This document shows positions 10,972-47,349 of a DNA stretch of 47,460 bases, in pieces. This stretch comes from Opitutia bacterium (lineage in GTDB: Bacteria; Verrucomicrobiota; Verrucomicrobiia; Opitutales; Seribacteraceae): positions 1 to 47,460 of the forward strand of contig NZEN01000079.1 in the NCBI GenBank assembly GCA_002689665.1. The letters are read 5' to 3'. Below the pieces are notes generated by a model that was given only the letters and a program-made list of their open reading frames with translations, was not told the DNA's origin and made no database searches. Within the stretch, counting starts at the first letter, position 1; the number at the start of each line of letters is the position of its first letter. A program made the position numbers and the translations under genes.

Positions 10972-13900
10972 ATGAATCGGAAGCTCTTTTTTGGTTTCAT
11001 TATAGCTTATTTCAATGTGCTTCATTGGGAAACTTTTTTGCAGGCAGATAGTTTCCCTTATTTTTCTGAGGTTGAAGACCCCAATGGATCCTACCAGTTC
11101 TTCGAAAATCAATATTATAAATTTACAACTACCAGTCGGAATCTTTTTATAAGTGATCAGGTAAATTCGGATGCAAATTTGAGCGAAGTTTTTCCTTCAA
11201 AGCACGTTTCTAGTGATGAATATATTTTGTTCAATGCAACCCACGGTTCCCCGAGACTGAATTATTATTTTGACCCCGATGATCTTGATTTTAACGGATC
11301 CATTCAAGTTATTCCATATTTGGAGGAGGGTCCCATTATTCCTACCTCTCTAGCCTCAGAGGATTACTTTGGTTATGAGTTGGTGATTAACGATTGGAAC
11401 GAGACCATTGTTAGTTCTCCAAGTAAAAATTCGAATAGTGGGAGCATCTATGTTTTCGAACATAATGCAAGTAATCAGTTTATTCAAAAAAGTCAGCTTC
11501 TACCAGAGTCTGGCGACGAAGGATGGTGGGGTGACTCTCTTGAAGTTTCAGGCGATTTACTTTTCATTGGAGCACCTAATGCAGCTCTAAATGCAGGTAA
11601 GGTGCTTCTTTATCAGCGGATAAACGGAATATATACGAAGCAAGCGGAGCTTTCTGACCCTCGCACAGGTATTACTGAGTTTTTTGGTTCATCCATTTCA
11701 TTTGGTGCTAACCAAGAAAAGCTAATTATATCTCCTAATGTAGAGGGAAGTGATAGGGCCGGCCGTGTGGAGATATTTGATTTGGATGCGTTGGGAAACT
11801 TAACTCATGATCAAACCTTGTGGTCGGATGATAATGTTTCCGGTAATTACTTTGGAATTGATCATGCCTTGACCGAAGAATATCTGATTGTCGGGGCCCC
11901 AAAAGAAGACAACCAATACGGACGGGCATATATTTTTGATCGGGAGAATAACGGAAGCTGGTCCAATAGTCCAACAAGCCTTGTGCCTAGTTCTTTATCC
12001 GCTAACGACGAATTTGGGTACACCGTCGAAATAAATGAAAACTTTGCATTTGTCGGAGCAAGAGTTGGGGATGGAAATGTGACAGATTCAGGGGCAGTTT
12101 ATATTTTTAACAAACAAAATGAATCCTGGGTTGAAACAGCCAAATTGTTTCCACCCAGTGGCGATAGCAATCAAATATTTTCGGTATCTCTGGAAGCTTT
12201 AGATGATTTAATCGTGGTAGGGTCTATTGGAGTGGGAAGCGAAGGGATGGCTTATGTCTATAAAATGCACGAGGGAAATGCGAGTGACTGGCGTTTGATT
12301 TCGGCTCTCGATAACAACGGATCTTCTACTACCAATAGAAATTATTTATCTATAGCCGTGCAGAAAGGTATCATTGCAATTGGTAGCCCTGAGGATTCAG
12401 TAAACTTAACTGACGGAGGCTCATTTAAAGTTTTTTACAATGAGGGGTGGCAGCTCCAAAACCCAATGCCCCTTGATCCTTTGTTTACATCAGTTCCTTC
12501 CGCGACTTTAGACATTTTAGAGGACTCACTAAGTGGTGCATCCTATGACTTTGAAGTAGAGCATCCATTTGAAAATAATTTCACATGGAATATCTCATCG
12601 GATAATGCACCTGCAAATACTTTTTCTGTCTCTTCCGAGGGAAATTTTTCTTATTTGCCTGAGGGCAACTTTAGTGGGGTAAAAAACTTTACTATTGGAG
12701 TTAGCTCGTTAAATGGTGGGAGAAATCATTCATTTCAGGTCAATATCATCTCACAGCCTGACTCGCCGATTTTTGATGCAGGGCAATCCAATGAGTTACA
12801 GGCAGTCTGGGTGGGGGAGGATACAGATCAGACCATCCAAGTATACGATTCTGATGATAATGATACACTTACAATTACTGCGAATTCTTTACCAGATGGA
12901 CTTCTTATTGTAGGTCATTCAATCCAAGGTAGAATAACGGATGACAGCTTACTAAATGGTGCATCCTACAGGGATTTCCAACTTGAACTTGTTGTTTCCG
13001 ATGGAGTCCCTGCAACTGATGACGCGACTAAGTTTTTTAATTTGAGGGTTTATTCAAGAAATTCGGCACCCTTTTTTACCGATGAGAATGGCACGCCTGT
13101 TACAACTAAGGACATCACCTTAAATGAAGATTTTACGGTTGCTGATTGGGCACAAGCATTTGGTCAATTAAGGTTCCAGGATGATTACACCGAGAGTGGG
13201 TTTACTCTTACACTAGAGACAAACGCCAGTCACGGAGTTGTTTATTTGGATGTTTTGTCTTCCACTCCTATTGTTTTCTTACCTGATGAGAATTATTTCG
13301 GGACAGATGTTTTTTCGGTCGCCTTGCATGATGATAACAATCCATCGAAGTCCTTTGTCCTACCTGTGAATGTAACCATAAATCCCGTGAATGATGCACC
13401 CGTTTTGTCATCTGCCATCCAGGTTCAGGCAAGTGAAGGGATCCCGTTCAGTTACGATATTTCCTGGGTAGATGTCGATCATGATTCGGGACATGTGGTT
13501 ACAATCACGGATTTACCTGGGTGGATCACTTATGACGATACAAATTACAGAATTCAGGGAACTCCTGAATGGGAAGATTACAGGAGTGACCCGTATAAAG
13601 TATTCATACTTATCGAGGACCCTGCAGGTGGTTCCGGCTATGCAACTATTGAAATAGACATCATACCACTAAATTATCCACCCAAATTTAATCAAGAAAA
13701 CTTAAGTCTTTCGATTCCAGAGGATACACAATTGACAATTCCCCTTTCTGCTTTTGATCAAGACCTAATTGATGGTTTAGTTACTTGGAGTTTTGTAACC
13801 GAGCCCTTGCATGGCACTTTTTCACTCTCTGCAAATAATTACCAAAGCGTGGTTGAGTATCAACCTGAAGGGAACTACACGGGTGCAGACTTTTTAGAGA

Positions 13901-16900
13901 TTAAAATTTACGATCCCCTGCACCCTCACTTGTTTGATCTTTTAGAAGTAGATATATTTTTGCAAAGCGTTGAAGATCCACCCGTAATTTTTCCAAGGGC
14001 TAAGTATACGGATGCAGTAGTAGGGCATGAGTGGAATTTTGAATATGCTTGGCAAGATGGTGATATTAATCAAACCGTGCAGATAATTCCACCAACTTTG
14101 CCTTCCTGGTTAACATTCCAAGGTAATATTGACAGCAACGCATCTCGAGCGAGAATTTTTGGAGTGCCATCTTCTTCTGATCTTGGAATCACAAGTATTA
14201 CACTGGAAGCTTCAGATAGTACAGAGCTTGTTGGAAATGAAACTTTTGAGATAAATGTATTGGCCGAAAACTTCGTCCCAGAAATCGTTGAGGGTGAGAA
14301 TCTTTCCGTTGAGTTAGTCGAAGATGGTTTTTGGGAGAAAGTCAACGCACTGACTAGCTATGATCAGAATAAGCAAAGACAGCAGTGGACGGTCCTTTCT
14401 GGTCCCCAAAATGGGGTAGTTCAACTTACTGAAGAAAATGAAAACCTAAAGACAATAAGGTATTCTCCTGGCAGTAATTTTAATGGAGATGATTCAGTTG
14501 TTATTCAACTAAGTGATGGGATCGATAGCGATCAATTCACTTATTATTTCAAGGTAATAAGCGTGGATGATGCCCCGTTCTTTACTTCTAATCAAGAAGG
14601 GGACACTTTTAGAGTCGAAGATGGAGAACTATTCGAACAAGAGATTACCTTCTTTGATGGTGACATGGATTTGTCCCATTACACTACAACAGGACTACCA
14701 CCATGGGTGAGTCTGGATGCTTCAAATTTTGCTAATGGAATTCTTCATTTATCGGGAAGGCCATCGGTGGCTGATGAAGGAAACTATCAGGTTACAATCA
14801 ATATTTTTGACGAAAAAAACCTTTCAAGCACTCTATCCTTTAATCTGGAGGCATATGTTTATAATTATCCTCCCGTTTTAACTTTTTCTGAACCGCACTT
14901 AGAGTTTGATGAAGATCAATCCAAGGTAAGGTTAGGAGTTCTCTCAGTTACTGACAGAGATCAAGCAAGTGGTCACAATTGGAGTATCCCTCTTCAACCC
15001 CGAAATGGAATTGCCATTTTTACACTTCTTGGCAATGAACGTGTACTCTATTATTTGCCTGATGGTAACTTTTCCGGGGTAGATGAACTAACATTAGCTG
15101 TCAGCGACAATGGTACAGCATTAGGAGATTCCAAATCTGAAAGTCGAAATATCCAAATAACAGTTAATCCAATTCCGGACTCACCTATTTTTGTTTCGGT
15201 TCCAACTGAGCAGGCTTATTCGGATGAGGATTATATTTACAATATAAAAGCCAAAGATGGAGATTTACCAATAGACGAACTTAAGATTGAGCTCGTTTCT
15301 GCCCCGCCTTGGCTTACTTTCCAGGACCATGGAGATGGCACGGGAGTATTAAGTGGAAAAGCAACTTATAAAGATGAGGGACTTTTTGAAGTTCATTTTA
15401 AAGTTGAGGACTTGAATGGGGATGACGATGAACAGTCCTTTTTACTTGATGTAACAGTATTAGACTATCCTCCGCAGTTTAGATCCAAGAAGACTGATAC
15501 AATTTTAGAAAAAGTCATTCTCTACGTGAATGAAGATCAATTACTCGATAAATGGATAAATCCAAGAGATTTTTATGCCTACAACCCCGACCCTGAACCT
15601 GATGATTATAAAGAAATAAGGTGGTATGTCGAAAAAGACTCTCAGCAGGGAAGCGAATTACAGGTAAGCGGCAGTGGAGATAAGCCCACTCTTTTTAAAT
15701 ATAAACCAAGATCTAATTTTAATGGAACGGATTATTTTAGTTTAGTTATGGATGAGGGAGATCTTAAGACTGAGTTACCCTTCGAGGTCCAGGTTACTCC
15801 GGTGGCAGACCCCCCCTCGTTTTCATCGAATATCCAATCACTCTATTTAGTAAACCAAGGTGAACCTTTTGAACTTCCCATATATGCAGAGGATATAGAT
15901 TCCACGCGGATACAATTTAGACTGTTAGGTCCGACTTGGGATGAAAATCCTTGGTTAAATGTAGAAGATTATAATTCAAGTGGAAATGTTGTACTTCGAG
16001 GTATCCCTCAAGTTGCTCCAAATGGAAATATTTATCAATATTCCATTGTCGCAATGGATGAAAACGGTCTGCTTGCCGAAAAAGGGTTCTCAGTGGAAGT
16101 ACAAGGAATTAATTCCCCCCCGAGTATTATTTCTGAAGAAATTGAAATTCTTTTTGATCCAGATGGTGCACCTATTTCCGACATTGCATCATTGCGTGCG
16201 TATGACCCTGATGGCGATGCATTGACTTGGTCCTTGCTTGGGGAAGACAAGGAACCAGTTTGGGGCACTGCATTTGTAGAGGGTAATGGTAGTACACCAA
16301 GCAGGCTAAGTTATGTCGCTAAGTCCCTAAAAGCTTCCCAGGATAAGTTTTGGCTCAAAGTTTCTGATGGGGTCGGCAGCGACACGATTCTTGTTAGGCC
16401 AATTATTGCATGGGGAACTGGATTGTCTGTTGTCGGTGAATTTACTGATTTTTCAATTAAAGAGATGCAGGGTTTCTCTAAAGACATCAGCTTTTTTCCA
16501 AATAACTCTCTTGACGAAATTACCTTCCATTTAAAAGAGGGACCCTCTTGGATTGCTGTTAATCAAATTTCAAAAAATAAATTTAGAGTCCGTGGAGTTG
16601 CCCCTCAAGGGAGTTCAGCGAACTATCACATTTCTCTGGAAGCGAAAGGGGAGGTTACCGCTCCCTACGGAGTTGATTTTAACTTAGAAGTACAAAGTAG
16701 TGTACCTCCAACTTTGGAACTCAAAGATAATCTTCTGGTTAGACTCTCTAGTTTTGAACCGTTTGATGATCAAAATTTTCGTGCGAGTGATGCCAATGGT
16801 AAAGATTTATCTTCTGATGTTTTAATCGAGGAAAAAGATGGTACAGGTTTTAAAGGTTTCAAGACTTTGGAATACACCGTTTCGGATCAATTTGATAATT

Positions 16901-19900
16901 TCGCATCTGAAACACTTCTCGTTCGTCAATATTTCGAATGTCCCTTGCTCGTCGATACAAAGAGACTGAAGTTTAACTCGAAAAATCTATTAGCTTCTTG
17001 GGCAAATGATGGAAAAATGCAGATTTGTGCAGACCAATTTCAAATTACTGAAGTAAATGGAACAGTAGGATTTTTTCCGCCCGTTGATGGCTCAAGCAGT
17101 CATCTTATTTCCCGTAATTTAGCTGTAATGAATTCACTGGAATTTAAGGGAAGTAATGTAAGTGTTTCTGAACTTTTGAACGATGGCAGAAATACATTCA
17201 TAAGCGGTTATTTCTCAGAACATATCACATTTGGATTTAATTCAATTTATTCAGAATTTCCAAATAATGCTTTTGTTGGATCCTTCGATCAAAACGGAAA
17301 TGTAATTTGGGTTAAATCTTTCGGATCAAGTAATCCAATTGAATCATTGAAACTTTCTTTTTCAGGGGAAGGTAAACTCGTAATGGGGGGGGCTTTTTAT
17401 GAATCTTTAACATTCCGGGGTCCTAATGATCTTCATATGGTGGAAAGGAATAAAGGTGTCTTTTTATTTGAATTTGAAGAAGACGGATTACTTACGAAAA
17501 GCATTTCTTATGAAATAAACTCCGCGGCGTCTGTAGCAGGTGTGGCGTCTGATAGAGAAAATACTTACTTGATTGTTAATAATTGGGAGGGGAATGAAGG
17601 TTTAGATTCCCGCGTTTTGCTCATGGGTAGCGATCTGGAAATACTCAATGAGGTGAGTTTACAAAGCACAAAAAATGTAAACCTGGTTGATTTTGAAATT
17701 GTTAATGGGCATTGTGTAGTGGCAGGGAATTTTGAGGGTACTTTATCTTTGGGTGGCAATAATTTGCTTACTGGCAGTAGCCCGTCTGCATTTTTAATCT
17801 GTCTTGATGATCAAAGTAATGCAACTTGGGCAAAAGTAATTTCAAGTTCAGAAGCTTCTAATATTCATGCCTTAGAGTCCGATTATTGGGGAGACCTCTT
17901 AGTCGGAGTTTCTTTCTCCGGAAGTATTGAGACGGGAATAGGGGCGGTTGCTTCAGCGGGTTTTGATGATTTACTCTTAGTAAATTACAAACTTTCTGAT
18001 GCCAGTCCTTTGTGGTTCAAGAGTATTGGCGGCGTAGGAGAAGAGCGTTTCCATTCATTGAAGACAGGAACAATGGGGACTCCTCTTTTACATTTTGAAA
18101 CTCAGGAAGGACTTTTTATGGATGGATATGACTTTTCTCCTACTACTCACAATGAGGTTCACTCGGTTCGATTTGTTTCTAAATCAGGTATTCCTGAAAT
18201 TGAATTAAATGAAATTATGATTAGCGAGATTGGAGATTTTTCTTTTGGTTTAGAAGTGGTGTATCCTGAATATCTATTTTTCGAAAAAGTTTCTGGCCCT
18301 GATTGGGTGAATATAAAGACCAAAGATGGTAGTTTGGGTAGAGCTTCTATAATAGGAAACAGCAAATATGCTTCTCTTAGTGAAATAAATGCGGAAAATA
18401 TTTTAAAAGTAAGAGTTTTTACAATTGATGGTACTTACAGTGAAAAGAACATAACAATTACATTCTCGAATGATGATGGTTTTGATATACAAGCTGGAGC
18501 TCTGCCAAAAAAGAATGAGGATCTGTCTTTTCATTTTGAAAATAATACAGAAATTTCCTGTATCTCACCTGACCTGAATGGCGGTTGGGTTCTCGCTGGA
18601 TTATTCCCTGAATTAGTCGATGATGATCCGCCACTTTTCAAATCATCAAGTCAGCTGGCTTTACTCTCAGATTCCATGGAGCTTTCGCTCTTATGCTCTT
18701 TTTATTCAAGTGATAAATTGAATGTTTCAGACATTAAATACATCCAAGATAACTCTATTTTAGCCTATGGTACTTTTAGTGGAATTCTGAAATTTAAAGA
18801 TATCGAGTTAACTTCAGCAGGTCTGAAAGATCTATTTCTAATGCGCATTAGTGCTGATGGGGAATTGATTGATTATACAACTTTCGGCTCAGTCTATAGC
18901 GAAGAGTCTGGGGAAATGATACTTAATGAAAAGGGCGATGTTCTGATTTCAGGCTCTTTTCAGGACCAGATAATCATCGGGGTAGAGTCGTTGATGTCTA
19001 GTGGTCAAGAGGATGGCTTTATTGCATCGCTTTCAATCAACGAATTTATGAAAGTTAATTGGGCAGAGAATTATGGTTTCACTGGAATAGATCATATTGA
19101 TTCAATTTGTAGGATCTCTGATGATCAATTCATTGCTGCTTCAATTTCGAGTACAGATACAACCGACTCAGAGTTTTCTCCAAGTTTTCAGCCTATTTCG
19201 AGATTAGACCTAAGACTGATTGATGGGGGAGATGGATTAACCAAAGATATCTTCACATTTTATTCTAATGGGCGGATTAATAATGCAAAAGTTGTCTCTG
19301 CTCTTTCTTTAAGCGGTCGTGTTGTATGTGCATTTGAATTTGAAGGAAAGCTTGAATGGCCTGAAGGAGAGATCCGGTCAAAAGGTGGGTTTGATATTTT
19401 TTCAACATCGTTGGGTGCAAGTTTTGCCAACCCTGTGAACTTTTCATTATTAGGGGGAATGTGGAATGATCGATTAAGCGACCTGCAAAGCATGAATGAA
19501 GACTATTATATTTCGTCAACATTTTATAATAGCATGAAGTTAGGCGATAAATTTATCAATTCGGTCGGTTCCAGTGATGCTGTTTTGGTAAAAGTAGACT
19601 CCGTCTCTCATGAAATCTTAGATTTTTTCCACTTATCCTCTCCGGTTCCGGATGCGATCAAATTTGTTTACCCCATTTCCGACGAATTTATCTTGCTGGG
19701 TGGTTCGACGGAGGCCGTTAAACCATTAATGCAGAATGACGAAGCATTTATTTCTTTTCTAGGTTCAAAGGTAACTGAGCCGAGAGTTTTGTCTTCAGTG
19801 CCTTTTGCGTTACCTCTTTCTTACCCCTTTTCTTTTACTATCAAAACTGGACCTTGGCCATTAGCTGTCACAGAATTGAAACTAGTAGATTATGATGAAG

Positions 19901-20670
19901 AGCTTGCTTATGATTGGATTCAATATCAGATAGATGATTCAGGGAATTTACGATTTTATGGAATATCTCCTTCATTTGAGCAAGTTTTTCCATTTGAGTT
20001 CGCAATTGCCTCTGCAACGGGTGACTACTCACTCCCCATTCAATTTAACTTATCTATCTCTGATGATGGTTCCCATGTGCCGGTTATAGAAGTGGAACCC
20101 GAGATAAAGATGACTTCCGGAGAGATTTATGAATCCAGAATTTCATTTTACGATCTCGATTTAGAGCAATTATCGGTCTTTGTTCAAGGGCCCGAATGGA
20201 TAGAATTAAAAAATAGTCAGAAGGGAGAAGCAGATTTGATCATAGATGGCACCAATCAATCTGGTGTATTTGAATTCCTGACGGTCGTGACAGACACTAA
20301 AGGAAATACATCAGAGCAAGTTTCGAAGGTTATTATCTCGTCGATAGATAACGATCTTAATGAAGAGGGCATTCCCTCTTCTAGCGGTATCTTTGATAGT
20401 TGGCTATTAAACAAAGTAAGCTTCTCAAGTGGCTGGCATTACCACCTCGAATTCGATTGGGTTTATATCAAACAAGACGAAGACGGATCAACTTGGCTGT
20501 GGAAGGAAGGGTGGGGGTGGCTTTGGAGTGAGAATAAGCTTTGGAATGATGACGGGGAGGGCTATTTTTATAAAGACGCTAGTTCTTCTTGGATATTTTG
20601 GAAACCGCAAGTAAGTGATTTAGATAACAATGTCTACGATTTCGAAGCGGAACAATGGATGCAGCTGTAG
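10972..20670 (+). CDS. Giant secreted/surface protein: FG-GAP-like repeats, tandem cadherin/Ig-like repeats, SBBP-like beta-propeller repeats, Trp-rich C-terminus
   Basis: Uninterrupted 3232-aa ORF; hydrophobic N-terminus; repeats such as EDYFGYELVINDWNETIVSSPSKNSNSGSIYVFEHN; E..PP.F....... / LPDGNFSGVDELTLAVSDNG Ig/cadherin-like units; GNVIWVKSFGSSNPIESLKLSFSGEGKLVMGGAF propeller units. Confidence 0.88.
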   Translation: MNRKLFFGFIIAYFNVLHWETFLQADSFPYFSEVEDPNGSYQFFENQYYKFTTTSRNLFISDQVNSDANLSEVFPSKHVSSDEYILFNATHGSPRLNYYFDPDDLDFNGSIQVIPYLEEGPIIPTSLASEDYFGYELVINDWNETIVSSPSKNSNSGSIYVFEHNASNQFIQKSQLLPESGDEGWWGDSLEVSGDLLFIGAPNAALNAGKVLLYQRINGIYTKQAELSDPRTGITEFFGSSISFGANQEKLIISPNVEGSDRAGRVEIFDLDALGNLTHDQTLWSDDNVSGNYFGIDHALTEEYLIVGAPKEDNQYGRAYIFDRENNGSWSNSPTSLVPSSLSANDEFGYTVEINENFAFVGARVGDGNVTDSGAVYIFNKQNESWVETAKLFPPSGDSNQIFSVSLEALDDLIVVGSIGVGSEGMAYVYKMHEGNASDWRLISALDNNGSSTTNRNYLSIAVQKGIIAIGSPEDSVNLTDGGSFKVFYNEGWQLQNPMPLDPLFTSVPSATLDILEDSLSGASYDFEVEHPFENNFTWNISSDNAPANTFSVSSEGNFSYLPEGNFSGVKNFTIGVSSLNGGRNHSFQVNIISQPDSPIFDAGQSNELQAVWVGEDTDQTIQVYDSDDNDTLTITANSLPDGLLIVGHSIQGRITDDSLLNGASYRDFQLELVVSDGVPATDDATKFFNLRVYSRNSAPFFTDENGTPVTTKDITLNEDFTVADWAQAFGQLRFQDDYTESGFTLTLETNASHGVVYLDVLSSTPIVFLPDENYFGTDVFSVALHDDNNPSKSFVLPVNVTINPVNDAPVLSSAIQVQASEGIPFSYDISWVDVDHDSGHVVTITDLPGWITYDDTNYRIQGTPEWEDYRSDPYKVFILIEDPAGGSGYATIEIDIIPLNYPPKFNQENLSLSIPEDTQLTIPLSAFDQDLIDGLVTWSFVTEPLHGTFSLSANNYQSVVEYQPEGNYTGADFLEIKIYDPLHPHLFDLLEVDIFLQSVEDPPVIFPRAKYTDAVVGHEWNFEYAWQDGDINQTVQIIPPTLPSWLTFQGNIDSNASRARIFGVPSSSDLGITSITLEASDSTELVGNETFEINVLAENFVPEIVEGENLSVELVEDGFWEKVNALTSYDQNKQRQQWTVLSGPQNGVVQLTEENENLKTIRYSPGSNFNGDDSVVIQLSDGIDSDQFTYYFKVISVDDAPFFTSNQEGDTFRVEDGELFEQEITFFDGDMDLSHYTTTGLPPWVSLDASNFANGILHLSGRPSVADEGNYQVTINIFDEKNLSSTLSFNLEAYVYNYPPVLTFSEPHLEFDEDQSKVRLGVLSVTDRDQASGHNWSIPLQPRNGIAIFTLLGNERVLYYLPDGNFSGVDELTLAVSDNGTALGDSKSESRNIQITVNPIPDSPIFVSVPTEQAYSDEDYIYNIKAKDGDLPIDELKIELVSAPPWLTFQDHGDGTGVLSGKATYKDEGLFEVHFKVEDLNGDDDEQSFLLDVTVLDYPPQFRSKKTDTILEKVILYVNEDQLLDKWINPRDFYAYNPDPEPDDYKEIRWYVEKDSQQGSELQVSGSGDKPTLFKYKPRSNFNGTDYFSLVMDEGDLKTELPFEVQVTPVADPPSFSSNIQSLYLVNQGEPFELPIYAEDIDSTRIQFRLLGPTWDENPWLNVEDYNSSGNVVLRGIPQVAPNGNIYQYSIVAMDENGLLAEKGFSVEVQGINSPPSIISEEIEILFDPDGAPISDIASLRAYDPDGDALTWSLLGEDKEPVWGTAFVEGNGSTPSRLSYVAKSLKASQDKFWLKVSDGVGSDTILVRPIIAWGTGLSVVGEFTDFSIKEMQGFSKDISFFPNNSLDEITFHLKEGPSWIAVNQISKNKFRVRGVAPQGSSANYHISLEAKGEVTAPYGVDFNLEVQSSVPPTLELKDNLLVRLSSFEPFDDQNFRASDANGKDLSSDVLIEEKDGTGFKGFKTLEYTVSDQFDNFASETLLVRQYFECPLLVDTKRLKFNSKNLLASWANDGKMQICADQFQITEVNGTVGFFPPVDGSSSHLISRNLAVMNSLEFKGSNVSVSELLNDGRNTFISGYFSEHITFGFNSIYSEFPNNAFVGSFDQNGNVIWVKSFGSSNPIESLKLSFSGEGKLVMGGAFYESLTFRGPNDLHMVERNKGVFLFEFEEDGLLTKSISYEINSAASVAGVASDRENTYLIVNNWEGNEGLDSRVLLMGSDLEILNEVSLQSTKNVNLVDFEIVNGHCVVAGNFEGTLSLGGNNLLTGSSPSAFLICLDDQSNATWAKVISSSEASNIHALESDYWGDLLVGVSFSGSIETGIGAVASAGFDDLLLVNYKLSDASPLWFKSIGGVGEERFHSLKTGTMGTPLLHFETQEGLFMDGYDFSPTTHNEVHSVRFVSKSGIPEIELNEIMISEIGDFSFGLEVVYPEYLFFEKVSGPDWVNIKTKDGSLGRASIIGNSKYASLSEINAENILKVRVFTIDGTYSEKNITITFSNDDGFDIQAGALPKKNEDLSFHFENNTEISCISPDLNGGWVLAGLFPELVDDDPPLFKSSSQLALLSDSMELSLLCSFYSSDKLNVSDIKYIQDNSILAYGTFSGILKFKDIELTSAGLKDLFLMRISADGELIDYTTFGSVYSEESGEMILNEKGDVLISGSFQDQIIIGVESLMSSGQEDGFIASLSINEFMKVNWAENYGFTGIDHIDSICRISDDQFIAASISSTDTTDSEFSPSFQPISRLDLRLIDGGDGLTKDIFTFYSNGRINNAKVVSALSLSGRVVCAFEFEGKLEWPEGEIRSKGGFDIFSTSLGASFANPVNFSLLGGMWNDRLSDLQSMNEDYYISSTFYNSMKLGDKFINSVGSSDAVLVKVDSVSHEILDFFHLSSPVPDAIKFVYPISDEFILLGGSTEAVKPLMQNDEAFISFLGSKVTEPRVLSSVPFALPLSYPFSFTIKTGPWPLAVTELKLVDYDEELAYDWIQYQIDDSGNLRFYGISPSFEQVFPFEFAIASATGDYSLPIQFNLSISDDGSHVPVIEVEPEIKMTSGEIYESRISFYDLDLEQLSVFVQGPEWIELKNSQKGEADLIIDGTNQSGVFEFLTVVTDTKGNTSEQVSKVIISSIDNDLNEEGIPSSSGIFDSWLLNKVSFSSGWHYHLEFDWVYIKQDEDGSTWLWKEGWGWLWSENKLWNDDGEGYFYKDASSSWIFWKPQVSDLDNNVYDFEAEQWMQL

Positions 20671-41941: not shown

Positions 41942-44176
41942 ATGTTTGAGCAAATAAAAGAAAAATTATCCTCCTTAAAAGGTAATAGTGATCTTGGTTT
42001 CGTAGGTGGTCTTTTTCTGGCAATATTTCTTTTAGTTGTTCCTGTTCATAAGGATCTTCTAAGCTTACTGTTAGTAATCAGTATAGCTATTTCTCTCTTG
42101 ATTTTGTTGACCATTATTTACCTGAAGGATCCTTCAGAATTTTCAGTTTTTCCGACCCTTTTGCTCGCCGTCACTCTTTACAGGCTTGGATTGAATGTAG
42201 CGTCAACCCGACTTATTTTGTTGGACGGAGATGCAGGTGGAGTCATCGAAGCGTTTGGCAGTTTTGTAGTTCGAGGAAATTATGTCGTGGGTACGGTTAT
42301 ATTTTTAATTCTCGTTATCATTAATTTTGTGGTTATAACGAAAGGTGCTGGTCGAATTGCTGAAGTTACTGCTCGTTTCACTCTGGATGCTATGCCTGGA
42401 AAGCAAATGTCGATCGATGCGGAAATGCAAAATGGGGTCATTACTGAAGCACAAGCTTTGGCCAAAAGAGAAAAACTCCAAAAAGAAGCGGATTTTTATG
42501 GTTCAATGGATGGTGCCAGCAAATTCGTTCGAGGCGACGCTATTGCAGGAATTATAATTACAGTTGTAAATGTAGTAGGTGGTATCTTGATCGGCTTTTT
42601 TCAGAGAGATATGGAAATCACGCAAGCTCTGGAAACATACACCATCCTTTCGATTGGTGATGGGTTGGTCACCCAAGTGCCGTCGATTATTGTATCCATT
42701 GCTGCTGGTATTCTGGTAACACGTTCTTCTGAGGAGGGAGATTTGGGAGATTATGTCTCAAAGCAACTGATTGTATACCCTCGTGCTATTGCCATTGCAG
42801 GGGCATTGCTTCTGCTTTTTTCATTATTCCTGTACGAGACCTTTTGGCCATTTTTTATTCTCTCAGTTGCCTGTTTTGTTACTGCCTACTTCGTTAAGAA
42901 AAAACTTGATGATGCCGACCCGGAGCAAGATGGAATATCTAATCAGGGCAATCCGAATGCTCTTGCAGGTAATGCTCCTCAAGTCAATGCTGCGAGTCCT
43001 CACGGTGGTTCTCCACAAATTGGAGACGAGGCTTCTGCTTTAACCCCAATGGAGAGTGCAATCGAGCAGGAAGTCTTTGGTCTTGAGATGGGGTATGGTT
43101 TGCTTGTTTTAGCAGATAAAAAGAAAGGCGGGGATCTGTTGGATAGAATTACAGGTGCCAGAACAAACTTTGCCCGTGAAATGGGAATGTTATTACCCAC
43201 CATCGGAGTGCGTGATAATATTGAATTAGAGCCAAATGAGTATCGTTTTTTGCTTCGTGGTAAGGAAATTATCCGATCTAGTGTTATACCTGACCGGGTG
43301 TTAGCCATGAGCATGGGAGGTGGAGACGCTACGAAGCTAGACGGAATTCCTACAATTGAACCCGTTTTTGGTATTGGTGCAACTTGGATTGCTGAAGATA
43401 AAAAACGCGAGGCTGAAGTTGAAGGTTGTACGGTAGTGGACCCTTCCTCTGTACTGGTTACCCATCTTTCTGATGTACTTAAGAGATTTGCATATCTCAT
43501 TCTAGAAAGAGAAGGAACTCAGAAATTACTTGATTTGATTAAAGATAAGAACCCTACTCTTGTGAGCGAGTTATTGCCGGATTTAGTCAATGTTGGAGTG
43601 ATACAGAGAACCCTACAGAATTTGCTTCGTGAAAGAATCTCCATTAAGAACCTAACTCTTATTCTTGAAACAATTGCCGATATGGCTCCAATCACTAAGA
43701 ATCCTGACGAGCTTTCGGAGCAAGCCAGACGGAGACTGGGAATGTATTTTGTCAAAGAATTTGAAGTAGAACCTGAAAAACTTATTGCCCTCACTTTCGA
43801 CCCCTCTCTTGAGCAGGCTTTGATCGGTCGAGTCAAAAGAAGTCAGTTTGATATAGGTTTGGTTATGGATCCAGAAATAACCGAGGGTATTCTTCAGGAA
43901 ATTGATCCGAAGATAAGAGAAATGTCAGAGCAGGGTTTGACTCCATTACTGATTACCACTTCCGAACTCAGGTTGGCTTTTAGAAGATTTATGGAACCAT
44001 CTTATCCTCAATTGATTATTTTATCTTACCAGGAACTACCTACTGAGACTAGAATTGAGCCCTATGGGTCTATAACCTTGCCTCAAAACTCTTTGCCTCC
44101 TGAGGTTTTGCAGGCAATGAACGAAAATCCTGAATTAAATGGCGTTCAAGAGGAACCCACCCCTGTACCCGTATGA
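41942..44176 (+). CDS. flhA: Flagellar biosynthesis protein FlhA
   Basis: FSVFPTLLLAVTLYRLGLNVASTRLIL; GAGRIAEVTARFTLDAMPGKQMSIDAEMQNG; GDGLVTQVPSIIVSIAAGILVTRSS. Confidence 0.97.
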   Translation: MFEQIKEKLSSLKGNSDLGFVGGLFLAIFLLVVPVHKDLLSLLLVISIAISLLILLTIIYLKDPSEFSVFPTLLLAVTLYRLGLNVASTRLILLDGDAGGVIEAFGSFVVRGNYVVGTVIFLILVIINFVVITKGAGRIAEVTARFTLDAMPGKQMSIDAEMQNGVITEAQALAKREKLQKEADFYGSMDGASKFVRGDAIAGIIITVVNVVGGILIGFFQRDMEITQALETYTILSIGDGLVTQVPSIIVSIAAGILVTRSSEEGDLGDYVSKQLIVYPRAIAIAGALLLLFSLFLYETFWPFFILSVACFVTAYFVKKKLDDADPEQDGISNQGNPNALAGNAPQVNAASPHGGSPQIGDEASALTPMESAIEQEVFGLEMGYGLLVLADKKKGGDLLDRITGARTNFAREMGMLLPTIGVRDNIELEPNEYRFLLRGKEIIRSSVIPDRVLAMSMGGGDATKLDGIPTIEPVFGIGATWIAEDKKREAEVEGCTVVDPSSVLVTHLSDVLKRFAYLILEREGTQKLLDLIKDKNPTLVSELLPDLVNVGVIQRTLQNLLRERISIKNLTLILETIADMAPITKNPDELSEQARRRLGMYFVKEFEVEPEKLIALTFDPSLEQALIGRVKRSQFDIGLVMDPEITEGILQEIDPKIREMSEQGLTPLLITTSELRLAFRRFMEPSYPQLIILSYQELPTETRIEPYGSITLPQNSLPPEVLQAMNENPELNGVQEEPTPVPV

Positions 44177-44188
44177 TATTAATCTAAT

Positions 44189-45325
44189 ATGTCAATTCTC
44201 CAACAAGCTAATACAGGTGAAGGAACTGGAAAAAAGTTTCGACTTATCGTGCGTTCAGCAGAAGAAGCTGTTCGCGTGATCCGGGATAAACTAGGTGACA
44301 ATGCGAAAGTAATTTCCGTCAGACAAGTCGGTGGAGAAGGTTTGAAGCGTTTTATTTCGTCGCCAAAGCTCGAAGTGATTGCCCAGGTAGTGGAAGAAAA
44401 TGAAGAGGCTCGTGAAGTAATTGACCAAACTGTCACAGAATCTTTGGTTAATCCTACTCCTGCAAAGGAAAAAACCGCAGAAAAGGCTGGTGATGAGGAA
44501 CCTGCCCCAAATACTAAAAAAGTAGAAGTTAAGGAAGCTGACGAGAATGGTAATGATAATTACAAACTTTTGTCAAAGTTCGGCTTTGATAAAGCTCTTC
44601 TTTCAGATATCCGATCTTGGTCTAACTGGTCGAAATTAGAGCAGGCTTCCATCGCAGAAGTGTTAAAAGAAATCACGGTTGGACTTAGCGACCGCTACCG
44701 TTCAATCACAGAAACCATGTGTACCGAAAAAGTAGCTCTACTAGGAGGTCCAGGGGTGGGGAAGACTACCACCCTTTGTAAGTTTTTGGCTCATGAGGTT
44801 TTCATGAATAAAAATCTTCCAAGTGTGCTTAAGGTTGAAAACGGTGTGCCCAATCCGGATGACGCACTTCGAATATTCTGTGAAGTTGTTGGAGTGACCC
44901 TGTTTCGGGAATCAGAGAGTATCCCTCAGGTAGACGAGAATCATCCATTGTATCTTGATTTTCCAGGGTTTGGTTTAAGTGAGATGGATGAATGGACAGG
45001 TGCCAATCAGATTTTAGATGATTTAGGAGTAGCAACTCGTATTTTAGTGGTCAATGGAGCTTATGATCGAGAAATTATAAACAGGTATATTCGTTCATCA
45101 AAAAGTGTTAATGCGACTCACATAGCAATCACTCACTTTGATGAAATGACAAACTCCACAAAGCTCTGGCCCATCATTCTTAATTCAAATCTTGCTCCTG
45201 TTTGTATTTGTAATGGGCAAAATGTAACCGGGGACTTCTCCACAAGTGTACTTAATCAATTAATAGCTAAAACTTTCCCCGAGGAACTTTACTCGAAGGG
45301 TTTTGCTAGCTATCAACGAATATAG
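44189..45325 (+). CDS. flhF: Divergent FlhF-like SRP-type GTPase
   Basis: N-terminal KFRLIVRSAEEAVRVIRDKLGDNAKVISVRQVGGEGLKRF; P-loop LLGGPGVGKTTTLCKF; CNGQNVTGDF; directly after flhA. Confidence 0.82.
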   Translation: MSILQQANTGEGTGKKFRLIVRSAEEAVRVIRDKLGDNAKVISVRQVGGEGLKRFISSPKLEVIAQVVEENEEAREVIDQTVTESLVNPTPAKEKTAEKAGDEEPAPNTKKVEVKEADENGNDNYKLLSKFGFDKALLSDIRSWSNWSKLEQASIAEVLKEITVGLSDRYRSITETMCTEKVALLGGPGVGKTTTLCKFLAHEVFMNKNLPSVLKVENGVPNPDDALRIFCEVVGVTLFRESESIPQVDENHPLYLDFPGFGLSEMDEWTGANQILDDLGVATRILVVNGAYDREIINRYIRSSKSVNATHIAITHFDEMTNSTKLWPIILNSNLAPVCICNGQNVTGDFSTSVLNQLIAKTFPEELYSKGFASYQRI

Positions 45326-45332
45326 CCGCCAT

Positions 45333-45671
45333 ATGAAAAACGATGCACGATACTTTTTTTGCCTCAATGGTTTTGTCGGCTTTTTACTTTTTTATCTAAT
45401 CGCCTCCTTTTTACACCAAAACTTTGCTTTTTCGTTGATGCACGGTGCTATCGGTTGCTTATTTTTTGCTATTTACGGAAGGTTTCTTTTAAGTATTCTC
45501 TTAAAGAATAATATTGTTCAGTCTGCCCAATCTACACAAGTTTCTAGCACTGTTTCCAAAGTTAAAGATAGTCCACCATCTAACCGAAACCCCAAACCCA
45601 AAGCAATTTCTCGTAATCAAACTTCTGATTTACCTCCCTCAGAGCAACCGATGGTCGACACAAAAGTTTAA
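45333..45671 (+). CDS. Small membrane protein (two predicted TM helices, Pro/Ser-rich tail), unknown function
   Basis: CLNGFVGFLLFYLIASFL and LMHGAIGCLFFAIYGRFLLSILL hydrophobic segments; tail SPPSNRNPKPKAISRNQTSDLPPSEQP; between flhF-like gene and fliA. Confidence 0.7.
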   Translation: MKNDARYFFCLNGFVGFLLFYLIASFLHQNFAFSLMHGAIGCLFFAIYGRFLLSILLKNNIVQSAQSTQVSSTVSKVKDSPPSNRNPKPKAISRNQTSDLPPSEQPMVDTKV

Positions 45672-45677
45672 TTTTAA

Positions 45678-46472
45678 ATGACAACCGCTTCGCATTTATC
45701 CACGAATCCTTCGGCCAACACACCGAGGGTTAGGATTGCTAGCGAGAACTACAGAAAAGCAATGCGTTCCGATGCCGAACGCGAGAAACTTATTCAAGAT
45801 TATCTACCCTTGGTTAAATCCATTGTTGTGAGGATGAGACATAACTTTCCTGATCATTATGACATGGAGGATATTTACGGAGTTGCGGTGAGAGCTTTGA
45901 TCGTTTCAGTAAATCACTTTAATCCTACAAAAGGAAAAGCATTTGGAAATTATGCAGCACTTCGCATTCGAGGTTCCTTGCTGGATGAACTTAGGAAAAT
46001 TGATGCACTTCCTCGTGCTAACCGTGCTAAAGCTAGGTCGTTGCAAGCTACTATTCGGGAATTTGAACTTAAGCACAACCGCACACCAACAGAATCTGAA
46101 GTTTGCTCCGAACTCAATCTTTCTGCATCTGAATATGCAAAGCTCCTTAAGGAGACTCAGCCCATCTCCTTTGTTCCGATAGATGGCAATCAACCGGCAG
46201 GTGTTGGTGAGGAAAATCTACCACTCTCTGAAACTTTAGATGATCCCACTGAAATTACTTCTGCGGAAAGGCTTGAGGAAAAAGAGAAGGTTTTATTACT
46301 ACGAGACAAAATTAAAGAATTGCCTGATCAGCAGAAGAAGATTCTGATGCTTTATTATTTTGAAGAACTTAGGCTCTCTGAAATTGCTCACATCTTTGGC
46401 TTGACCGAAGGAAGAATTAGTCAAATCCTTTCTCAGACTTTGTTAACACTGAAGGCTCAATTTAAATCATAA
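45678..46472 (+). CDS. fliA: RNA polymerase sigma factor for flagellar operons (FliA/WhiG family)
   Basis: YLPLVKSIVVRMRHNFPDHYDMEDIYGVAVRALIVSVNHFNPTKGKAFGNYAALRIRGSLLDELRKID; region 4 LPDQQKKILMLYYFEELRLSEIAHIFGLTEGRISQILSQ. Confidence 0.93.
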   Translation: MTTASHLSTNPSANTPRVRIASENYRKAMRSDAEREKLIQDYLPLVKSIVVRMRHNFPDHYDMEDIYGVAVRALIVSVNHFNPTKGKAFGNYAALRIRGSLLDELRKIDALPRANRAKARSLQATIREFELKHNRTPTESEVCSELNLSASEYAKLLKETQPISFVPIDGNQPAGVGEENLPLSETLDDPTEITSAERLEEKEKVLLLRDKIKELPDQQKKILMLYYFEELRLSEIAHIFGLTEGRISQILSQTLLTLKAQFKS

Positions 46473-46488: not shown

Positions 46489-47349
46489 ATGCTTTTAACA
46501 GTTGGTATAATTATAGTTTTCGTAGCCTGCATAGGCGGTTTTGTTGTAGCGGGCGGGAATCCAGTTTCCCTTATACATGCCGGTGAGATCATGATCATAT
46601 GTGGGATTGGTCTGGGCATTCTAGTGGTTTCCAGTCCCAAAGCGGTTCTTATGAATCTCAAGGATGATATCCTTAAGGCATTTAAAGGGGGAATCGCTAA
46701 CCCTAGCAAATTTGTTGATCTGTTGGTTTTACTTTACGAGCTTTTCATGCTTGGTAGGAGGAAAGGGACACCTGCTCTCGATGAGCATGTGAGTGATCCG
46801 CAAAATAGTACCATTTTCACGAAGTATCCGTCCTTTTTAAAGGATGAAGCACTTGTTGAGTTCTTGTGTAATTCTCTTCGTCCTATCGTGGATGGTAGAT
46901 GTAAACCAGGAGAAATTGGCGGTATATTAAATGCTGAGCTGACAAGTCGAGAAGCTGAAGCCACACGGTCCATCAAAGCGATCGACATGATTTCAGATGC
47001 TTTACCTGGTGTCGGGATTGTGGCGGCTGTTTTGGGAATTATCAATACGATGTCCAATCTGGAAGATCCTGAGTCAGTCGGGTACAAAGTGGCTGCAGCA
47101 TTGAGCGGAACTTTCTTAGGGATTTTCCTGGCTTATGGTATTGGTGTTCCTTTGAGCCGTTTAGTTTCCCTGAACCAGACTCAGGAATTTCTCTATTTTA
47201 GAATCGTGGAGCGATCCGTTTCTGGTTTCGCCACTGGACTCTCGCCGATTATGGCTGTTGAAATTGGAAGAAGATCTTTGGATAAACAAATCCAGCCTAC
47301 AGCGGATGAATTGGAAGAAAAATGTAAGGATGCAGCTAAAGGTGCTTGA
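46489..47349 (+). CDS. motA: Flagellar motor stator protein MotA
   Basis: IGGFVVAGGNPVSLIHAGEIMIICGIGLGILVVSSP; LPGVGIVAAVLGIINTM; ALSGTFLGIFLAYGIGVPLS. Confidence 0.95.
   Translation: MLLTVGIIIVFVACIGGFVVAGGNPVSLIHAGEIMIICGIGLGILVVSSPKAVLMNLKDDILKAFKGGIANPSKFVDLLVLLYELFMLGRRKGTPALDEHVSDPQNSTIFTKYPSFLKDEALVEFLCNSLRPIVDGRCKPGEIGGILNAELTSREAEATRSIKAIDMISDALPGVGIVAAVLGIINTMSNLEDPESVGYKVAAALSGTFLGIFLAYGIGVPLSRLVSLNQTQEFLYFRIVERSVSGFATGLSPIMAVEIGRRSLDKQIQPTADELEEKCKDAAKGA

Follow-up and report, generated by a model that had tools for sequence, protein, structure and literature searches.

Does the FlhF-like protein encoded at this locus still run the SRP-type GTPase cycle, given its altered GTPase motifs, or is a stripped-down or rewired switch used for the flagella instead? 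The window (the whole stretch of DNA analyzed, 47,460 nucleotides) carries a flagellar operon in which the gene is preceded by fliO-fliP-fliQ-fliR-flhB-flhA and followed by a small membrane protein gene, a sigma-28-type factor gene and motA. It therefore adjoins flhA and lies 5' of fliA, the gene position expected of flhF. The features of this region are as follows.

41942..44176, + strand: flhA (PF00771, 792 bits)
44189..45325, + strand: flhF-variant ORF, 378 aa from an ATG start, with FID-linker-N-G domains
44225..44386, + strand: N-terminal FliG-interaction-domain-like region (aa 13-66), E-H-E-E fold, highly conserved, function assigned by homology to the FID of S. putrefaciens (PMC11236974)
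45333..45671, + strand: FlgV-like small membrane protein, 112 aa from the ATG at 45333, two hydrophobic helices, Arg in TM2
45678..46472, + strand: fliA (sigma-28 type), based on sigma-70 region 2/3/4 matches and position
46489..47349, + strand: motA (PF20560, PF01618)

Descent and operon position mark the ORF at 44189-45325 as an FlhF orthologue, in the form that Verrucomicrobiae carry. Against the NCBIfam FlhF model (TIGR03499), the protein scored 58.3 bits, compared with a curated cut-off of 174.15, and its best-matching stretch was aa 19-117; none of 141 class genomes passed this cut-off. The Pfam SRP54 match was just under threshold. Because both scores fall below their cut-offs, the FlhF of Verrucomicrobiae would escape automatic annotation. 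A profile of the variant family, searched against solved structures, placed B. subtilis FlhF (2px0) first at 71.6 bits and S. putrefaciens FlhF at 51.4 bits, with FtsY (27.5 bits) and Ffh (22.7 bits) well below. AlphaFold2 modeled the protein from 74 sequences with a mean pLDDT of 86 and a pTM of 0.68, the low-confidence part being the linker, and the top three PDB matches of this model in Foldseek were all FlhF (E 1.9e-12 to 1.5e-10; TM normalized to the target, 0.70-0.75). By profile and by fold, then, the NG domain is nearest to FlhF among SRP GTPases, which upholds the FlhF-like label of the preliminary description. The FliG interaction domain (FID) of S. putrefaciens FlhF consists of three strands and one helix (PMC11236974), and the modeled N-terminus has the same fold (E15-21, H24-34, E39-47, E60-67), as is characteristic of the FlhF B-domain. 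A PF00448 search of the source genome for a second, canonical FlhF returned nothing beyond Ffh, FtsY and one weak P-loop match (20.8 bits).

We placed the G1-G5 motifs by comparison with B. subtilis FlhF (2px0) and with five canonical FlhFs from the same phylum.

44744..44785, + strand: G1 P-loop, GGPGVGKTTTLCKF (aa 186-199), intact in this protein
44828..44878, + strand: G2/I-box position, LKVENGVPNPDDALRIF (aa 214-230), where canonical FlhF has TTDTYRxxAxEQLKxY; no Thr and no Arg finger
44879..44953, + strand: shortened I-box, the acidic residues of G2 and G3 being separated by 40 residues instead of 46; helix missing from the AlphaFold2 model
44954..44983, + strand: G3, LDFPGFGLSE (aa 256-265); D257 and G260 kept, the next Arg lost
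45131..45145, + strand: G4, THFDE (aa 315-319); Lys changed to His, Asp kept
45209..45238, + strand: G5, CNGQNVTGDF (aa 341-350)

In SRP GTPases, G2 is defined as DTxR, in which the Thr contacts the gamma-phosphate and Mg and the Arg is the finger, G3 as DxxG and G4 as (N/T)(K/Q)xD (PMC10910532). The window protein retains the G1 pattern GxxxxGK(S/T) and the DxxG of G3, the latter without the Arg that usually follows, but reads ENGV at G2 and THFD at G4. Aligned with the five canonical FlhFs, it has ENGV for DTYR, DFPGF for DTPGR and THFDE for TKxDE. Lost, then, are the G2 Thr and Arg finger, the Arg that normally follows G3, six residues of the I-box and the Lys of G4, which has become His; the G3 core (D257, G260) and T315, D318 and E319 of G4 are kept. 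No canonical DTYR or DTAGR was found elsewhere in the protein in alignments to FlhF structures and to the five canonical FlhFs. The preliminary description had reported an intact P-loop, an intact G5-like CNGQNVTGDF and an altered DTYRxGAxEQL site, and the alignments bear out all three, since the first two align to G1 and G5 of FlhF and the third coincides with the G2 segment listed above. It had also reported that LDFPGFGLSE replaces DTAGR and that THFDE replaces TKLDE. Both strings are present, but the changes are smaller than was claimed: G3 loses its Arg while its DxxG core survives, and in G4 only the Lys is exchanged.

These changes recur across 98 distinct Verrucomicrobiae FlhF sequences. 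Only 1 retains the G2 Thr, which the other 97 have lost; in no sequence is G3 followed by Arg; and His (H316) takes the place of the G4 Lys in 97/98. The Arg finger is gone in most lineages, with Arg occupying the G2 Arg column in 23/98. Among the surviving residues, D257 and D318 occur in all 98 sequences, E319 in 96 and G260 in 94. New residues have become nearly fixed (W327 in 97/98, Y292 in 96/98, N289 in 95/98 and N222 in 94/98), an acidic residue stands at position 217 in 96/98, and the replacement G2 motif, [ED]xxxPNPDD, is strongly conserved in the variant family. In most members, the acidic residues of G2 and G3 are separated by 40 residues, compared with 46 in canonical FlhF, so that a segment of the I-box is lacking.

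The P-loop is less uniform. G1 is intact in 70/98 sequences, and the other 28 have Ser, Arg, Ala or Val at the position of its Lys. When the motif columns were left out of the tree, these 28 sequences grouped as one clade, with one inferred change; deep placements are unsure because this was a quick tree with long branches. The members without the Lys include L039, L082, L079, L160 and 24 others, and where Arg has taken the place of Lys, G2 reads EFDRPN. The most basal member of the class, L211 (L040), keeps DMTR, has TQAD in G4, lacks the I-box deletion and has no FlhG; it looks like an intermediate.

Orthologues 82% identical to the window protein exist in other genomes. Compared with orthologues at 71-82% identity, synonymous sites were at or near saturation, whereas dN was 0.02-0.05 in the FID and 0.06-0.17 in the NG domain; for the nearest orthologues, NG-domain dN was 0.06 with synonymous sites saturated. 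Fast evolution was confined to the linker. This purifying selection indicates that the protein is in use and rules out a pseudogene. Together with the 82% identical orthologues and the motifs conserved in 98 sequences, it also rules out chance or sequencing error as the source of the unusual motifs.

According to a 2025 review, flhF and flhG occur together, with flhG normally directly downstream of flhF, and FlhG stimulates FlhF through a DQAxxLR helix (PMC12826062). Five genomes from other classes of the same phylum (L206-L210) fit this description: their FlhF motifs are intact (DTYR or DTFR; DTPGR, DTGGR or DTQGR; TKxDE or SKTDE), and FlhG with DQAxxLR is encoded directly downstream. Three of these five loci also share the operon arrangement of the window in that flhA lies directly upstream of flhF; of the other two, one is on a contig too short to tell and one has no flhA match. 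The Verrucomicrobiae variant, in contrast, lacks these motifs and the downstream flhG. No KGGxGK gene was found near the flhF variant in 80 Verrucomicrobiae loci (flanks of up to 6 kb, less at contig ends).

To search beyond the operon, we used an FlhG profile built from the five sister-class FlhGs, which by construction score 434-483 bits. As independent controls, the solved Pseudomonas FleN scored 251 bits, Geobacillus FlhG 206 bits and MinD 75-122 bits. Across 47 genomes carrying the variant, several of them single-contig, the best score was 60 bits, and FlhG was not found. Nor was it found in the source genome; since that assembly is only 69% complete, the claim that FlhG is absent rests on the relatives, among which complete genomes agree. 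Over 286 class genomes, only three (G145, G158 and G212) scored 200-230 bits, and these matches look MinD-like because they lack the N-terminal activator helix and come from genomes without an FlhA or variant FlhF match. The searches of the 47 carriers and the 286 class genomes argue against an FlhG encoded elsewhere in the genome.

The slot normally held by flhG, between flhF and fliA, is occupied here by the FlgV-like ORF. Pfam and NCBIfam did not recognize this ORF, and we assigned it by inspection of its topology (two TM helices), its position in a flagellar operon beside a sigma-28 gene and its Arg in TM2. FlgV is known from the PVC group (PMC11607428), and the ORF resembles Type-1 FlgV in these respects; Type-1 genes usually follow flhF-flhG, whereas this one directly follows flhF.

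Within the 286-genome class sample, FlhA scored at least 600 bits in 63 genomes, and all 63 encode the variant FlhF. Three more carriers lack a full-length FlhA match (split in one, no match in two), probably because of fragmentation. Seven class genomes have a divergent FlhA (530-581 bits), and no FlhF match was found within the flagellar cluster examined in these genomes; in five of the seven, the gene order is flhA, a two-helix FlgV-like gene, fliA, motA. The operons at L243, L244, L245, L246 and L248 read flhA-flgV-fliA-motA, with neither flhF nor flhG found in the cluster. In the phylum sample, strong matches to the variant occurred only in the class of the window. As judged from these genomes, the altered FlhF characterizes the whole class and accompanies the lack of FlhG; it is not confined to one protein.

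The preliminary description had suggested that the protein may bind nucleotide without canonical SRP-type activation. Such activation is indeed very unlikely, because the G2 Thr and Arg finger, the G4 Lys and FlhG (in 47/47 carriers) are all missing. The loss of key GTP-splitting residues from FlhF, coupled with the loss of FlhG, means that a stripped-down or rewired switch is probably used for the flagella. With G1, the G3 Asp, the G4 Asp and G5 intact, the window protein may well still bind nucleotide, whereas family members without the P-loop Lys may fail to do so.

Our preferred reading of these sequence patterns, which we consider probable, is that this FlhF orthologue has become a scaffold that binds FliG, cycles weakly or not at all, and has no need of FlhG. 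The FID would bind FliG, and the NG domain would supply anchoring and dimer contacts. The FlhG-stimulated cycle of GTP hydrolysis and dimer release would no longer be run; instead, the variant would act as a persistent scaffold, GTP-bound or nucleotide-independent, keeping FliG and the nascent MS/C-ring in place where assembly occurs. Flagellar number and release would then be set by something other than FlhG. Experiments in other bacteria provide some precedent. In S. putrefaciens, the FID binds FliG, and the binding of NG to HubP is nucleotide-independent (PMC11236974). In V. alginolyticus, the R334A mutant of FlhF, though devoid of GTPase activity, shows normal localization and flagellar formation, whereas most GTP-binding-site mutants are impaired (PMC6092412). 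That laboratory mutant resembles the window protein in lacking the Arg finger and indicates that FlhF can work without hydrolysis; however, it carries a single mutation in the presence of FlhG, whereas here Thr, Arg and Lys are all changed and FlhG is absent.

Several observations count against the scaffold. The conservation of [ED]xxxPNPDD and H316 is as compatible with a rewired pocket as with a dead one, the G2 Arg column still holds Arg in 23/98 relatives, and FlhG may have given way to an unrelated activator. The strong conservation of the replacement motif itself makes a rewired active site the main rival: the ExxxPNPDD loop and the TH-DE motif would form a new catalytic or nucleotide site, at which GTP or another nucleotide would still be hydrolyzed with a different mechanism or activator. 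The near fixation of N222, H316, D318, W327 and the acidic residue at 217 is consistent with such a site, as are the intact G1, G3 Asp and G4 Asp of the window protein. We nevertheless consider an active NTPase unlikely, given that FlhG is absent and that 28/98 sequences no longer have the P-loop Lys, with Ala, Ser and Val among its replacements, which is hard to square with obligate catalysis throughout the family.

A dispensable gene heading for loss, in which the G domain merely holds the fold, would fit the flagellated Verrucomicrobiae that have flhA-flgV-fliA and no flhF. This is improbable in view of the strong purifying selection on the FID and NG domains, the retention of the gene in 63/63 genomes with the main FlhA type and the conservation of the new motif. 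Even harder to credit is an ordinary FlhF with misaligned motifs or an assembly error. We found nothing in its favor, the family model score being merely low (58 bits), and the alignments to solved FlhF structures and 98 relatives, which fix the motif positions and reveal no canonical motif elsewhere, rule out misalignment or artifact.

The scaffold might be extended to the whole class, although we offer this only tentatively and rather doubt it: flagella would be positioned and counted with a nucleotide-independent pseudo-GTPase FlhF, after a step-by-step dismantling of the FlhF-FlhG circuit. FlhG would have been lost and FlhF altered class-wide, the P-loop Lys would have been lost in one subclade, and flhF would have gone in some lineages.

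Compared with the FlhFs of B. subtilis (2px0/2px3) and S. putrefaciens (8r9r), the window protein shares the FID-linker-NG architecture, the SRP-type NG fold, the gene position after flhA and the G1, G3 Asp, G4 Asp and G5 elements, but it has no DTxR, no Arg after G3, His for the G4 Lys, an I-box six residues shorter and no FlhG partner. We found no prior description of an FlhG-less variant FlhF in the open-licence papers searched, nor anything relevant there on FlhF in Verrucomicrobia or on SRP pseudo-GTPases. In contrast to the reviewed pairing of flhF with flhG (PMC12826062), a whole class keeps flhF without detectable FlhG and with a matching loss of catalytic residues. Verrucomicrobiae thus offer a natural test of whether FlhF needs its hydrolysis cycle or only its GTP-bound or scaffold form.

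Two minor observations concern the protein and its surroundings. Cys197, Cys231 and His311 (window protein numbering) are conserved in ~95% of family members and found in none of the five aligned canonical FlhFs, making them a possible structural or metal site. Near the flagellar cluster, window positions 10972-20670 encode a 3232-aa protein with bacterial Ig, cadherin-like and FG-GAP domains, which is likely a large surface adhesin-like protein.
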